From a virus: a stretch of DNA of 21,936 bases. The DNA lies in IMG/VR virus record IMGVR_UViG_3300038701_000684, positions 1 to 21,936 of that record; one strand, written 5' to 3'. Within the stretch, counting starts at the first letter, position 1, and each line of letters begins with the position of its first letter. This document shows, in pieces, positions 1 to 20,119 of the stretch. The translations under genes were made by a program, and so were the position numbers. The notes below the pieces were generated by a model. The model made no database searches, had not been told where the DNA came from, and worked only from the letters and a program-made list of their open reading frames with translations.

Positions 1-1277
1 AGAGGCCCAGCAGCACCAGTAGGCCCAGCAGCACCAGTAGGCCCTGTGGCACCAGCAGCTCCGTCTGCTCCTTCAGTAGCCCAGCTCAATGACTGAACTC
101 TAGTAATTGTTAGTAGACCCTCTACATCAAGCTCATAAGAAACTGAAGAAGGGCTTGCTAATGCTGTATTGTGGTCTGCTATTACGGCAGGAGTACCGGT
201 TACATTTACTGCACCTGGTGTAATATTTGTTCCTGTAGGGGTTACTGTAAATTCACCTAATCCGGGTGTAGCAGCAACACTATCTAATTGCGTTGTTCCC
301 TTAAATACAGAAATAGTCGTTCCTGACCCGTTATAAGTAACAGAGCCTCCTGCTGTTCTAGGAAGAACATGAGAGTCGTTTGTTAGTATAACAGTATAAG
401 AATCTGTAGAAACCCAGTTAGTATTGTCCCAAACATATATACGATTATCGGTGCTTAATAATACAGTTTCCCCAATAAACGTACCTGCTACAGGTAAAGA
501 TGTTACAATACGAATTGGTAGGTTATCTTGGTTATGTACACTATAATATTGTTCAAAAGTGTAATCACTCCCATTTTTATTAATCTTACCAACAATAGCA
601 GCATTTTCTACATCACTTACATACAATAGTCCAAATAGGTCATATACTGGCGCCACTTTCAATCGTGCGCTACCAGCTGCTGTTACCTCAATTGGGTTAG
701 CATTACTTGTTGTTGAGGAAAGAGTAAAAGTATCGCTTGTAGGAACAGTACCAATATAATAAGTAGTGTTTGCCTCAATACCACTATCAGCAGTTCCGTC
801 TCCTCTAGGGTATGCTTGTCCATCTGGGTTCCAAGTCGACACTATCTCTACTGGATCATTAACTGAAAATCCGTGGTCTTCATCGGTCGTGAACACGGCT
901 GTAGATGCTTCGGTAACATTAGTAATTGTTATGTCACTAATATTTCTATCTACAGCAATTGTATCAGCATCTACATAGCTATCAACAGTTACCCAATTTG
1001 TACCAACTAAGAATATACTTCTGTCAGTCGGAATAGTTCCTGTTTTCTTGTATAAAGTATTGCCCCGTACAACAACAGTTGCGTTAGCGCTATCAACTAC
1101 ACCATCACTACCGCTATCAGTAATGTCAATATCCCTAAAGAAAGTGACATTATCATTAACAACAGGTACAAGTAACCTAAAACCGTGGGTAACGTCATAT
1201 GCTAGATATGCATATCCCTCTGTTCCAGATAGGTTGTTTGCTATATTTGTTAATGAAAGGTTTGTATTATATGCCAT
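1..1277 (-). CDS. Tail fibre protein with collagen-like repeats (partial, 3' end outside window)
   Basis: I translated this frame by hand from the ATG at 1277 to the window edge: 425 codons with no stop. The ATG directly abuts the TAA of the J-like gene (stop 1280-1278), which suggests translational coupling. The product begins MAYNTNLSLTNIANNLSG and is rich in Thr, Val, Asn and Asp. Around residues 110-200 it has the pattern common in phage fibres: a 'DHGFSVNDPVEI' turn, then 'TYYIGTV' and 'DTFTLSS', resembling an FCCH-type beta module. From residue 403 it becomes strict Gly-X-Y (GAD GAA GAT GPT GAA GPT GAA GP), so a collagen-like triple-helical shaft starts just before the edge. Position after J and the repeat type indicate a side or central tail fibre that binds the host surface. 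The receptor-binding end is not visible. Fibre role is inferred from context; the collagen repeat is seen directly. Confidence 0.85.
   Translation of the reverse strand, partial: MAYNTNLSLTNIANNLSGTEGYAYLAYDVTHGFRLLVPVVNDNVTFFRDIDITDSGSDGVVDSANATVVVRGNTLYKKTGTIPTDRSIFLVGTNWVTVDSYVDADTIAVDRNISDITITNVTEASTAVFTTDEDHGFSVNDPVEIVSTWNPDGQAYPRGDGTADSGIEANTTYYIGTVPTSDTFTLSSTTSNANPIEVTAAGSARLKVAPVYDLFGLLYVSDVENAAIVGKINKNGSDYTFEQYYSVHNQDNLPIRIVTSLPVAGTFIGETVLLSTDNRIYVWDNTNWVSTDSYTVILTNDSHVLPRTAGGSVTYNGSGTTISVFKGTTQLDSVAATPGLGEFTVTPTGTNITPGAVNVTGTPAVIADHNTALASPSSVSYELDVEGLLTITRVQSLSWATEGADGAAGATGPTGAAGPTGAAGP
3..59 (-). repeat. 18-bp tandem repeat encoding Gly-X-Y collagen triplets
   Basis: Plus-strand positions 3-20 and 21-38 are identical 18-mers (aggcccagcagcaccagt), followed by a diverged third copy at 39-56. 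Each unit encodes six residues (two Gly-X-Y triplets) of the fibre on the minus strand. The array runs to the window edge and probably continues. Exact repeats of this kind can expand or contract by slippage, so the shaft length may vary between isolates. Confidence 0.85.
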
Positions 1278-16340: not shown

Positions 16341-16905
16341 CTTTGTAGCGATCCAACACACGTTTAATGTGTTCTGGGAAGTTTGCCTCTGGGTCAGCTC
16401 TTCTTATAGTAAAGCTAGCGTGGTTTAGTTCCGGTTTATGTTCGTCGTTCAAATAGTAGGTGATAAGGTCAAATACGGCTAATCTTAAATCTTGGGGAGT
16501 AGTCTCATACCCTGCCGTATAAATTACTTCAACACTATTGATTCCTATTGGGAAATCTTTGCGTACCCCTTCTTCAACGCGGTACAGTGCGTCCAAATTA
16601 GTATCATACTCATACTGACTTGCTGTTAGTGTTGTATAATCGGAGTCTTCTAAGTAGCTCGACGATTCTTTGACACTAGTAATAGTGTTAAGCGGAAATT
16701 CGCTTAAGAAAACTACATCTTGAGGATACTTAATTGTAAAGTATTCCGTCTTTTCTGTAGAATAATTGTCTATTAAAGACCTACCACAATAGCCTTTTAC
16801 AAGCTCACTAAGTGCAGGTATAAGTACGTTCAGGCGCGTATCTTCAGTATCACCTGTAATACCTCTGTACGTCTTATACTGATTGACTGTAACCAAGTCG
16901 GCCAT
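16333..16905 (-). CDS. Head-tail connector (HK97 gp6-like adaptor)
   Basis: 190 residues. The start MADLVTVNQYKTYRGITGDT followed by TRLNVLIPALSELVKGYCGRSL is the classic opening of gp6/gp15-like adaptor proteins (short helix, D-x-x-L-x-x-L-I-x-A, then E-x-Y-x-G-R). A beta region follows (VVFLSEFPLNTITSVKE), then SVEVIYTAGYETTPQDLRLAVFDLITYYL, another strong family signature (YTAGY...P-x-x-L-x-x-A). Adaptor rings of this family sit below the portal and receive the neck proteins. ATG 16905 is preceded by GGAGA with 9 nt spacing. The last 8 nt overlap the next gene. Confidence 0.9.
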   Translation of the reverse strand: MADLVTVNQYKTYRGITGDTEDTRLNVLIPALSELVKGYCGRSLIDNYSTEKTEYFTIKYPQDVVFLSEFPLNTITSVKESSSYLEDSDYTTLTASQYEYDTNLDALYRVEEGVRKDFPIGINSVEVIYTAGYETTPQDLRLAVFDLITYYLNDEHKPELNHASFTIRRADPEANFPEHIKRVLDRYKDV

Positions 16906-16926: not shown

Positions 16927-16948
16927 GGGAGCCCCCGAAAGGGCTCCC
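16927..16948 (-). other. Strong GC hairpin after the capsid gene (not a typical terminator)
   Basis: An 8-bp perfect stem (GGGAGCCC / GGGCTCCC on the minus strand) with a 6-nt loop (TTTCGG), placed 8 nt after the capsid stop and 21 nt before the connector start. No T-run follows, so it should not terminate efficiently. It could protect the 3' end of capsid mRNA after cleavage, or lower expression of downstream genes. Confidence 0.7.
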
Positions 16949-16956
16949 TAACTAGC

Positions 16957-18930
16957 TTATGTAGCGCTAGCTGAGTAGTTGCGTCCTACAACTGCTGTTG
17001 CACCAGTAATAATCTCACTGAAGCCTAGGCGTTGTGTAGCAATAAGCTCACGGTGCTGTAGGCGTGGACGGTAATCAGTTTCTAGTGTTGTTCCGCGTAG
17101 GCGTGGAACAACAAAGTTACGTGGGTTAACCGCAACTGCGTGGAACTGAGATACTGCAGGTGTGTTGAACTCGTCAACTAGGATAACTGGAGAGTTAAAT
17201 ACTCGTCCAATTTCACCTGTTAGTTTGGTCGCTGTGTTCTGACCAACTAGGTTAGCATCTTGGTACTCTGGGTCTTCTAGTAGCTCGAAGTATGCGCGTT
17301 CTGAAACGATATACACAACTTCTTGTGGGCGCACACCGTACTTACCTAGTGCTTTACGCATTGTAAGTAGGTTAGCTGCTGTTAGAGCGTCAGAGTTGAA
17401 CGCTGTTGTTGACTGAACGTTGGTAGAGTTGTCTTTACCAATTTCAATTAGCCCATCAAAACCACCTGTATTCACTGCTGTAGAGTGTCCACCAAGTAGG
17501 ATTGCGTGCTCAACAGAACGAGCGTGTGAGCGAACCATAGACTCTTGTAGTAGAGGTAGGATCGGAAGAATCATATCTTCTTCTGTGTCGTTCGCTAGGA
17601 ACGTAACACTCATTAGCTTGTGAGTTGTAAGCACTTTTTGGCCTAGGTCAATACCATTTGCTGGTCCAGTTAGTGCATCGCCACGTGCGCGTAGGTTACC
17701 CTTACCACCTGTGTATGAAGCACCACCTGCTGCTGTAGTAAACTCAGCGTATCCTGCGTCTGGTAGGATAGGTAGTGTCATTGTTGCACTGTTCATTGCG
17801 ATCTCACGGAAAAGAGGTGCAAGCATTAGAGCATTTTGAATGTCACGCTCGATGCTTGTAGACGCAATGTGTTCGAATACTGCTGTTGAAGCAGCCGCAG
17901 GCGCCTCAATAGAAGACATTTCGTTCACTTTTTCTTTAATGTCGTTAGCAAAGTTAGTGTCCCAACCTTTTTCTGTAACAACACCTAAGATATACGCGTC
18001 AGTAATATCTTTTTCGTGTGCTTTTTTCCAGTCTTTTTCGTTATTAGCAAAGAATTGACGCTTAGAGTTTTGGAAAGCAGAAACCTGCTCTTTATTTTCA
18101 ATAAGGTCTTTCTTTAGTTGCTCAATTTCTTCTGCAGTTGTCTGTGCTTTTTCATCAAACGCTTTTTTAACTTCTTCTAGAAGTGCTTCTGCGCCCGACT
18201 TACCGGCTTCTACTGCTGTTTTTGTTACTGCTTCGTTTGCTGCTGCTTTTGCCGCTGCCTCTTCTGCTGCTTTCTTATCTGCTGTTTCTTTTTCAGCTAG
18301 TGCCATCTTTACGGCTGCTGAAGTTTGCTTTGCGATAAGTTCTTTTAGTTCTTTTTCGTCCATTTCAAACTTTCCTTCTGTGGTTTTTTCCACCTGAGTG
18401 GATACTTCCACTGACTTGCCAGTAGCTGGCACTTTTAGTCCTTGCTTAAAACTTTTAAACTCATCTGGACTAAACATTTTTACGACTTCAAAAGTAGCCG
18501 CTTGGTTAGCGGGAACAGAAACTACTGAAATTTCAAATAGCTCTGCTTCTTTAATCAGCAGGCCACCAGTTTCCTTCATGTAGTCTGCATCCTTCACTCT
18601 AAATCCAACACTGAATGTAGAGAGAATCCCGTCTTTGACTAGGCTAGCAACAGCAGGATCAGCTTTACTGATATGTGCTTCTACTTCTAGTCCGTTTTCA
18701 ACAATCTTTACATCGCTGCATTTCCCAATTGGTCTATCGTAGTCATGATTAAACAGAACAATTGGATTGTTCATGTAGTTAACCAGACCCCCTTTAGTCC
18801 AGCAATCGGGTTCCATTACGTCTCCCATGCGGTCAATGTCGTCTGTCGATGCCATTCCGCGAATTTTCACGTAATCATCTGTCTCTTCCGACTTCTTAAC
18901 CACAAAGGATAGTAGACCGATTTTATTCAT
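16957..18930 (-). CDS. Fused prohead protease - scaffold - major capsid protein (HK97 fold)
   Basis: 657 residues from ATG 18930. This start has an AGAGGAAA site (AGAGG 18944-18940, 9 nt spacing) and overlaps the portal stop by 8 nt. A GTG at 18954 would add 8 residues and is less well supported. Residues 1-155 are an HK97-type prohead protease: His62 in VLFNHDYDRPIGK, Ser107 in ILSTFSVGF, and the acidic motif ELFEISVVSVPAN. Residues about 160-300 form a highly charged Ala/Lys/Glu helical region, like the HK97 delta domain that acts as internal scaffold. From about 330 the HK97 capsid fold follows (ALMLAPLFREIAMNSATMTL, 'GLIEIGKDNSTNVQ', 'EVVYIVSERAYFELLEDP', and a C-terminal VVGRNYSASAT). 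HK97 encodes protease (gp4) and capsid (gp5) separately; here they are one frame. An internal start at 18363 could give capsid without protease. Confidence 0.93.
   Translation of the reverse strand: MNKIGLLSFVVKKSEETDDYVKIRGMASTDDIDRMGDVMEPDCWTKGGLVNYMNNPIVLFNHDYDRPIGKCSDVKIVENGLEVEAHISKADPAVASLVKDGILSTFSVGFRVKDADYMKETGGLLIKEAELFEISVVSVPANQAATFEVVKMFSPDEFKSFKQGLKVPATGKSVEVSTQVEKTTEGKFEMDEKELKELIAKQTSAAVKMALAEKETADKKAAEEAAAKAAANEAVTKTAVEAGKSGAEALLEEVKKAFDEKAQTTAEEIEQLKKDLIENKEQVSAFQNSKRQFFANNEKDWKKAHEKDITDAYILGVVTEKGWDTNFANDIKEKVNEMSSIEAPAAASTAVFEHIASTSIERDIQNALMLAPLFREIAMNSATMTLPILPDAGYAEFTTAAGGASYTGGKGNLRARGDALTGPANGIDLGQKVLTTHKLMSVTFLANDTEEDMILPILPLLQESMVRSHARSVEHAILLGGHSTAVNTGGFDGLIEIGKDNSTNVQSTTAFNSDALTAANLLTMRKALGKYGVRPQEVVYIVSERAYFELLEDPEYQDANLVGQNTATKLTGEIGRVFNSPVILVDEFNTPAVSQFHAVAVNPRNFVVPRLRGTTLETDYRPRLQHRELIATQRLGFSEIITGATAVVGRNYSASAT
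18361..18379 (-). promoter_or_regulatory. Internal ribosome site and ATG inside the protease-capsid gene
   Basis: In frame at codon 190 (ATG 18363, protein starting MDEKELKELIAKQ) there is a well-placed AGAAGGAAA upstream (AAGGA 18377-18373, 9 nt spacing). It lies exactly at the boundary between the protease domain and the scaffold helix. Initiation here would give a 468-residue scaffold-capsid protein without protease. This resembles the nested scaffold of lambda C/Nu3 in principle, but with the abundant subunit as the short product. It is unproven. Confidence 0.5.
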
Positions 18931-20119
18931 CGTCGTTTTCCTCTGGTCTACCACCCTCGGATGGATTGACCGCTGACCCAGCTATATTCTGGGGAACTCG
19001 TAGCTCATCTTGTCCGTCGATATCGTCGTATGTAAGTGCTCTACGTGCCTCGTTAATAGTAATAATACCAGCGTTAACTAGTGTACTATAGAAAGTTGCC
19101 TGTTCTCTTAGTTCTGGCTGCATGCCCGGAACATCGTTGTCCGGCATTAGCTTAAATCCAAAATAACGCTCAAAGGCTTTAAGTGTTTTATCAACAAAAG
19201 GAACAACAGTTTCAACGTAAAATAGTCGTTGGTTTGGCCTAATGTTTGCGTTATTTCCACCAGCAAGGAGAATTGGAGGGATACCAAGAGTAGTTAAGAT
19301 TGCTTTTTCTTGGTTAATAGTACTGTTTTCAAAGTCTAGTTCTTTAAAGCTAATATTACTAACAGTATCAAGCTCTAATCCACCATCAAGAATAAGAGGT
19401 CTTCGTCCGCCTTTATTGGGAGAGTAGGCCCTAAGCCAACCTTCAATCATTCTTTCTTTTAGCTTATCGCTAAGAGCGTTTGGTGACTTTAATACAAGAC
19501 TAGGAACGGCGCCATTTTCAAAGAATGTGTCCTGAAAATTGATCATGCGCCATAAAAGATCCATGTTCTTTTGAGCACCTTTTAGTCTTGATGAACCACG
19601 ATAAACATTGCGTAGTGCGTTGTCTTTAATATGTATAATTTCGTCTGCATCATATAGTACAGTTCGTACTTTGTACCCTGCTAGATATGTATTGTTATCT
19701 GGTAAAATTTCAACCATATGTGCTGGAAGGTGATATATATGCACACCATCAAAATAGATAAAGGCGTTACCTTCAACAAGCAAATCTGTAAATACTAACC
19801 TTCTAAATGTACCAATGTCCATAAAAGGATTAGGCTCATGATTAAGAAGCTTAACTACTCGTTGTCTTTTTACACCTTTTGCAAGCCTAAAATCTTGTGG
19901 TATCGTTTCGTTATCAACAACAATATCAATTTGGCTAGCATCATCTACGATCATATTGACCGCTCTATTTACAATACCTAAATTTTCAAAATAAGCCCAA
20001 TAGCTTTTTACTGATGTTGCAATGTTTGTACCAGCGTCTTGCTTGATAAAAGGTTGACTAGGGTTTAGCTTTTCGCGGATTCCTAGTGTCTCTAGTGTAC
20101 TATTCCAAATGTTTGCCAC
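18923..20119 (-). CDS. Portal protein (HK97 family)
   Basis: 398 residues, near HK97 gp3 (424). The family signatures occur in order: 'GIVNRAVNMIVDDASQ' near 50, HEPNPFMDIGTFRRLVFTDLL, 'VEGNAFIYFDG', a beta region ending DADEIIHIKDN, 'YRGSSRLKGAQ', 'FFENGAVPSLVLKSP', then 'ILTTLGIPPILLAGG', 'RLFYVETVVPFVDKTLKAFE' and an acidic C-terminus (NPSEGGRPEENDDE). The portal is the dodecameric ring through which terminase packs DNA. The start is a GTG at 20119 backed by AGAGGTG (AGAGG 20130-20126, 6 nt spacing). It overlaps the HNH gene by 20 nt upstream and the capsid gene by 8 nt downstream. Confidence 0.95.
   Translation of the reverse strand: MANIWNSTLETLGIREKLNPSQPFIKQDAGTNIATSVKSYWAYFENLGIVNRAVNMIVDDASQIDIVVDNETIPQDFRLAKGVKRQRVVKLLNHEPNPFMDIGTFRRLVFTDLLVEGNAFIYFDGVHIYHLPAHMVEILPDNNTYLAGYKVRTVLYDADEIIHIKDNALRNVYRGSSRLKGAQKNMDLLWRMINFQDTFFENGAVPSLVLKSPNALSDKLKERMIEGWLRAYSPNKGGRRPLILDGGLELDTVSNISFKELDFENSTINQEKAILTTLGIPPILLAGGNNANIRPNQRLFYVETVVPFVDKTLKAFERYFGFKLMPDNDVPGMQPELREQATFYSTLVNAGIITINEARRALTYDDIDGQDELRVPQNIAGSAVNPSEGGRPEENDDE

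Follow-up and report, generated by a model that had tools for sequence, protein, structure and literature searches.

It is an old question how the right small number of proteases enters a shell of hundreds of subunits, and the locus analysed here appears to hold its answer within a single frame. The nearest annotated phages are T5-like (Demerecviridae), at ~31–38% identity. In T5 itself the S78 protease pb11 is encoded directly upstream of pb8, a 458-aa capsid precursor with an N-terminal scaffold, but the two genes are distinct, and each is bounded by a start and a stop codon; prohead I is built from 775 copies of pb8, and pb11 is the protease that removes the scaffold (PMC5292684). In lambda and Mu, an in-frame start within the protease gene yields a protease-free partner: lambda C and Nu3 overlap (Shaw and Murialdo, 1980, as cited in PMC8508860), and in the Mu-like phage PaMx73 a plausible Shine–Dalgarno (SD) sequence lies 9 nt before the internal start (PMC4378225). 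In these phages the short product is a scaffold on its own, with the capsid protein encoded elsewhere by another gene.

In-frame starts inside protease genes have precedents, and the fusion of an S78 protease to a capsid protein has likewise been annotated before, in phage PAJU2, where the record carries the note ‘prohead protease fused capsid protein’. Gifsy-2 reportedly holds protease, a scaffold-like middle and capsid protein in one tripartite gene; unlike the protease studied here, that of Gifsy-2 is ClpP-like and belongs to another family. Nested 3′-coterminal products are also made by herpesvirus UL26/UL26.5, which supply few protease–scaffold and many scaffold-only molecules, although these arise from separate transcripts and have no capsid protein in frame.

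Protease, scaffold and capsid in one frame

The window (the whole stretch of DNA analysed, 21,936 nt) has no DNA match among cultured phage records. Its head genes run from portal through the fused gene to a head completion protein and the tail genes (Table 1), and the fused gene is a single uninterrupted frame of 657 codons. The ATG at 18930 is the likelier start of this frame, since a GTG further upstream at 18954, also in frame, has a weaker SD (−2.4 versus −6.0 kcal/mol).

Table 1. Positions of the fused gene, its neighbours and its internal signals in the window.
Feature	Position	Strand	Basis or remark
Portal gene	18923..20119	-	Phage_portal E 8.1e-52; overlaps fused-gene start
Fused S78 prohead protease–linker–scaffold–T5-like HK97-fold major capsid gene	16957..18930	-	657 aa; Pfam, phrog_80, phrog_617, phrog_267
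Third stem-loop TGCCAG-CTA-CTGGCA, palindromic	18417..18431	-	terminator-like match, reported on + strand
Second stem-loop AGTGGA-AGTA-TCCACT, 6 bp	18397..18412	-	sequence and hairpin search
Stem-loop GTGG-AAAAAA-CCAC, 2 nt upstream of SD	18380..18393	-	window copy of conserved junction hairpin
Internal Shine–Dalgarno AAGGA, 9 nt before ATG	18373..18377	-	conserved in 96/97 distinct junctions
Internal in-frame ATG (codon 190), predicted to begin a 468-aa capsid precursor without protease	18361..18363	-	
Strong hairpin GGGAGCCCTTTCGGGGGCTCCC just 3′ of capsid stop codon, before next gene’s SD	16927..16948	-	
Head–tail adaptor / head completion gene	16333..16905	-	downstream; HCP E 1.6e-14; phrog_442

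Pfam places Peptidase_S78 at residues 13–151 (E 5.9e-15) and Phage_capsid at residues 386–589 (E 1.7e-5); the protease part covers approximately residues 3–155 and the scaffold begins at residue 190. The Pfam match and the kept catalytic His and Ser assign the first part to the S78 prohead proteases (HK97-type/T4 gp21 fold), and His62, Ser107, E130 and E133 are invariant in 30/30 diverse relatives compared. Over its whole length the scaffold–capsid part matches the T5/DT57C capsid protein in a profile search against the PDB (8ho3, E 1.2e-82; 5tjt, E 4.6e-71), and a Foldseek search with an AlphaFold model of the fused protein recovered both this capsid (8ho3, E 2.8e-13) and the T4 gp21 protease (5jbl, E 6.4e-7), with herpes proteases as weak fold matches. 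By these profile and fold matches the second part is a pb8-type HK97-fold capsid protein with an N-terminal scaffold. The model, with a mean pLDDT of only 55 and too poor for detail, has a beta-rich domain at residues 3–138, pLDDT <50 over most of the linker (139–214) and a long helix from residue 192, an arrangement which places codon 190 at the domain border. The initial annotation had read protease, scaffold and capsid as joined in one frame, and the Pfam domains, the 657 codons and the four invariant residues bear this reading out. Whereas T5 has two genes, the window has no stop between them, so that protease is joined to capsid; the T5-like head module, with protease and capsid as two genes, was found neither in the window nor in any intact relative.

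To place the fusion among its relatives, IMG/VR was scanned with protein, alignment and DNA-pattern queries, which returned several hundred loci. Protease and capsid form a single-frame fusion in every one of the 146 distinct capsid sequences that have both domains; three T5-like records alone are split. The same open frame in 146 relatives rules out a frame broken by sequencing error. A capsid-only query, which cannot favour fusions, recovered 23 further intact relatives, every one of them fused; those that include the junction all have SD, ATG and hairpin there. The junction recurs at five loci of metagenome-assembled bacterial genomes, the most distant at 41% identity; in one of the five (L318) the frame ends within the capsid part. 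Judged by these loci, the fusion arrangement is common to a large aquatic phage lineage, a breadth that the initial annotation overlooked. The open frame of every intact relative, together with the conservation of the protease residues, suggests that the full-length protein is made and needed.

Two variations of the frame were observed among these loci. On one short contig (L274) it is interrupted inside the scaffold region, which may reflect misassembly or a genuine split, and this locus was excluded from the counts. In nine others (L004:1305-4064, L005, L006, L096, L177, L178, L180, L182 and L211) the frame extends 260–370 aa upstream of the protease, giving frames of 919–1009 aa with an upstream module that contains a phrog_2859, DUF5824 or TUDOR-like part. 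The protease of the L004 group is preceded by a very strong internal SD of its own (−11.6 kcal/mol), which suggests a third nested start.

The internal start signal at codon 190

An ATG stands at the protease/scaffold border in 146/146 distinct fused relatives. Defined as at least 4 nt at a spacing of 4–10, an SD precedes it in 96 of the 97 distinct junctions (the remaining one has no SD in that spacing), compared with 101 of 1362 (7.4%) other in-frame ATGs of the same genes, and the SD–ATG signal is preserved in >160 related genes. It takes three forms, AAGGA-N9, AAAGGA and GGAG-N6. The window has the first of these, and the duplex of its AAGGA (−5.7 kcal/mol) is similar to those of other genes of the window, an ordinary strength that by itself predicts no large excess of the short form.

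The codons of the GGAG-type junctions separate selection on the ribosome site from selection on the peptide. The Glu codon is GAG in 85/85 of these junctions against a background of 25%, while the residue before it varies (Met, Thr, Gln, Lys, Pro) yet is invariably encoded with G in third position: Thr is ACG in 30/30 cases (5% elsewhere), Gln is CAG in 9/9 (24%) and Lys is AAG in 4/4 (30%). On a quick tree of the capsid part this residue changed at least 17 times, with the terminal G kept each time. A varying residue beside a constant G and GAG shows that the target of selection is the ribosome site in the DNA rather than the encoded peptide. In the window’s own clade, GGAAAGTTTGAAATG is DNA-identical despite the diverged linker that precedes it, and between the window and L004 synonymous conservation at codons 186–212 reaches 19/23 codons versus 51% overall, which is weakly significant (13 of 407 windows of the comparison are equally high). 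The junction loci share ancestry, only 28 junctions lying below 85% identity, and their conservation is proof that the site is selected but says nothing of the product ratio.

The internal Met is homologous to the starts of separate capsid genes. The start of T5 pb8 aligns with Met190, and in the PDB profile search position 192 corresponds to residue 16 of the pb8-type chain. An in-frame ATG with an SD, under selection at the protease/scaffold border, places the locus with lambda C/Nu3 and Mu; the short product of those phages is a free scaffold and no capsid protein, whereas the one predicted here would be the scaffold–capsid itself, capsid fold included.

A comparable site occurs in the PAJU2-type fusions (PHROG_617), which likewise have S78 protease and HK97-type capsid in one frame with an internal ATG and a good SD. 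Such an ATG is found in PAJU2, IME307, Rhizobium phage RHph_X2_26, Salmonella phage FSL SP-016 and an Enterobacter plasmid prophage, preceded by AGGAGG, AAAGGAG or AAAGGA, and that of PAJU2 (AGGAGG) pairs at −10.8 kcal/mol; E. coli phage vB_EcoS-569R3, of the same type, has only a weak internal site. In a Stenotrophomonas relative a separate capsid gene begins with MKTYAEQIADLEATRE, a peptide nearly identical to MKTTAEQIAEFEATR at the internal Met of PAJU2, so that the two starts coincide. The PAJU2 type nevertheless differs from the window in its distant sequence, in having terminase before and portal after the fusion, and in lacking a clearly conserved hairpin before the SD. The fused protein of the window is not a full-length PHROG_617 member, as only residues 19–304 match (E 2.1e-34) and its capsid half matches phrog_267 instead, whereas a true member (L320) matches over positions 1–638. 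An internal start in two such distant families suggests that a protease–capsid fusion is workable provided that the capsid start is retained, and perhaps only then. We also observed that the records of the PAJU2-type loci L320–L325 (an Enterobacter plasmid prophage and Salmonella, E. coli, Rhizobium and Pseudomonas phages, with a mostly strong internal SD–ATG) label the fusion variously as capsid, protease, ‘capsid and scaffold’ or ‘structural protein’.

A kept SD–ATG that coincides with the starts of separate capsid genes is the trace expected of a working start. The initial annotation had placed an AAGGA 9 nt before the ATG at 18363, at the protease/scaffold border, and proposed that this start supplies protease-free capsid subunits; the coordinates and the structure model agree with the placement, and the proposal gains support from an SD kept through amino-acid changes and coincident with stand-alone capsid starts. 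Two other mechanisms were considered and rejected: a separate capsid promoter, there being no sigma-70-like promoter on the coding strand from 18930 to 18363, and a programmed frameshift, for which there is no conserved slippery site and the structure is on the wrong side.

RNA hairpins flanking the capsid part

This analysis adds two RNA structures that the initial annotation overlooked, a stem-loop closely preceding the SD and a hairpin beyond the stop codon. In relatives the junction stem typically lies within ~10 nt upstream of the SD and has a loop of 3–7 nt, and 97/97 junctions fold at −3 kcal/mol or below (30-nt windows starting −45 to −36). Against synonymous-codon shuffles, 28 non-redundant junctions have a mean z of −1.7 to −1.9, compared with −0.5 to −1.0 for other stretches of the same genes; the window’s own junction hairpin, of 4 bp at the conserved position, has weak support (z −1.4, p 0.10).

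The stem-loop is itself under selection. In a set of 39 gap-free sequences, chosen for their shared 4-nt loop, the three inner stem pairs are formed in 39/39, double changes are seen in four of five pairs, and the loops vary; the stem covariation score is 0.349, versus 0.092 for shuffled and 0.026–0.075 for slid stems. On the tree the innermost pair switched between C-G and A-U at least 10 times, with amino acids altered on both sides (Ala..Ala to Glu..Ser), and another stem pair changed at least 15 times. As these compensatory changes alter amino acids, RNA pairing appears to drive protein change. T5-like junctions fold too, with covariation unsupported there. Further upstream of the SD, relatives have a second structured stretch that overlaps conserved protein sequence, so that RNA selection is unsupported at that position. 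Beyond the capsid stop codon, a strong hairpin is present in 27/27 non-redundant sequences with enough DNA, its stem sequences varying.

The junction hairpin is without a T-run, which rules it out as a transcription terminator, and terminator-like matches of the type of the third stem-loop in Table 1 are no more numerous than in shuffles. As a general mark of all starts the hairpin holds only in part: of 53 other SD-bearing starts of these phages, 55% fold at −3 kcal/mol or below, versus 100% at the capsid junction. The major tail protein start has a hairpin in the window’s clade and generally none in the GGAG-type clade; in the window it is CTAGC-GAAA-GCTAG (14091–14104), immediately before the SD that serves this gene (12896–14077). 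Rfam gave no match at gathering threshold in the window, and the stem-loop was found in no family library. In the portions of the lambda and Mu literature covered, a conserved stem-loop upstream of the internal SD of the nested genes is unreported.

Proposed expression and assembly of the capsid precursor

We propose that in this marine phage the internal start very probably makes most capsid subunits, as a 468-aa protein, while the protease reaches the procapsid as part of a full-length protein made less often. Translation from 18930 would give the 657-aa protease–scaffold–capsid, and translation from 18363 a scaffold–capsid equivalent to T5 pb8. With most shell subunits derived from the internal start, the rarer full-length subunits would co-assemble with them, the protease thereby entering the procapsid covalently. 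After assembly the protease would release itself and then remove the scaffold; T5 pb8 is cleaved after K159, and the aligned site here is probably near Lys334, which would leave a mature shell protein of ~323 aa. The two hairpins probably mark the capsid part as an expression unit of its own, by keeping the internal SD accessible and/or by stabilizing the mRNA segment. We suggest, more tentatively, that the stem-loop may act with SD and ATG as a dedicated cis-acting RNA element which, inside a frame that ribosomes also read through, determines how many subunits bear a protease relative to those that do not, so that the protease dose per procapsid would be fixed by RNA structure; in one clade of the relatives with the upstream module, one frame would give three nested products.

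Were the 657-aa protein instead the sole product, all subunits would bring a protease and be cleaved afterwards, and the internal ATG would be a relic of a formerly separate capsid gene. The full frame, open in every intact relative with its protease residues conserved, is consistent with this, as is the single-gene arrangement of Gifsy-2 on one reading of that gene. A relic, however, would not retain GGAG while the residue giving the first G of this motif changed at least 17 times, nor hold ACG and GAG codons against backgrounds of 5% and 25%, and the ATG is invariant in a linker that is variable; we regard a lone polyprotein as very unlikely. We rate as highly improbable that SD and stem-loop act without initiation, as a pausing or frameshifting signal that separates protease folding from scaffold folding. 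SD-like sites and hairpins can slow elongating ribosomes, and the site does lie at the domain border, yet pausing needs no ATG and one stands at SD spacing in 146/146; moreover, the hairpin is upstream of the SD whereas classic frameshift sites need downstream structure, and split relatives begin a real gene at the same place. Coincidence in a lysine/glutamate-rich linker has next to no probability: AAGGA arises readily from Lys, Glu and Gly codons, and 7.4% of the other in-frame ATGs have such an SD, but the site is kept in relatives in its three SD forms and recurs in a second fused family, and the comparison refutes chance.

Processing of the RNA would modify our explanation, in that the flanking hairpins would define a stable capsid mRNA from which the short protein is mainly made. 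Every non-redundant relative with enough sequence has hairpins on both sides of the capsid part, and the stems covary while the loops vary; on the other hand, the hairpins correspond to no known Rfam family and also occur upstream of some other genes (about half of the starts compared, against all junctions here), and we think such processing rather unlikely.

Genes of this kind should be annotated as two nested products, not as one long ‘capsid protein’. Three elements appear to be new as far as our searches reach: an internal start from which the capsid protein itself would be made, the lineage-wide conservation of this start and the covarying stem-loop. A literature search covering few subscription papers returned no description of a protease–capsid fusion with an internal start in T5-related phages.

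Three further features of the window lie outside the fused gene. A good sigma-70-like promoter (TTGACA, 17 nt, TACACT; minus strand, 12850–12878), followed by a long hairpin, is located just after the major tail protein gene, inside the structural cluster. A 602-aa frame (14553–16361) has as its only match a weak tail-completion/Neck1 similarity in its last 80 residues, the ~500 residues in front of this part matching no family. At the edge of the window, a tail-fibre-like frame (3–1277, minus strand) that runs off it ends in collagen-like Gly-X-Y repeats (GATGPTGAAGPTGAAGP).
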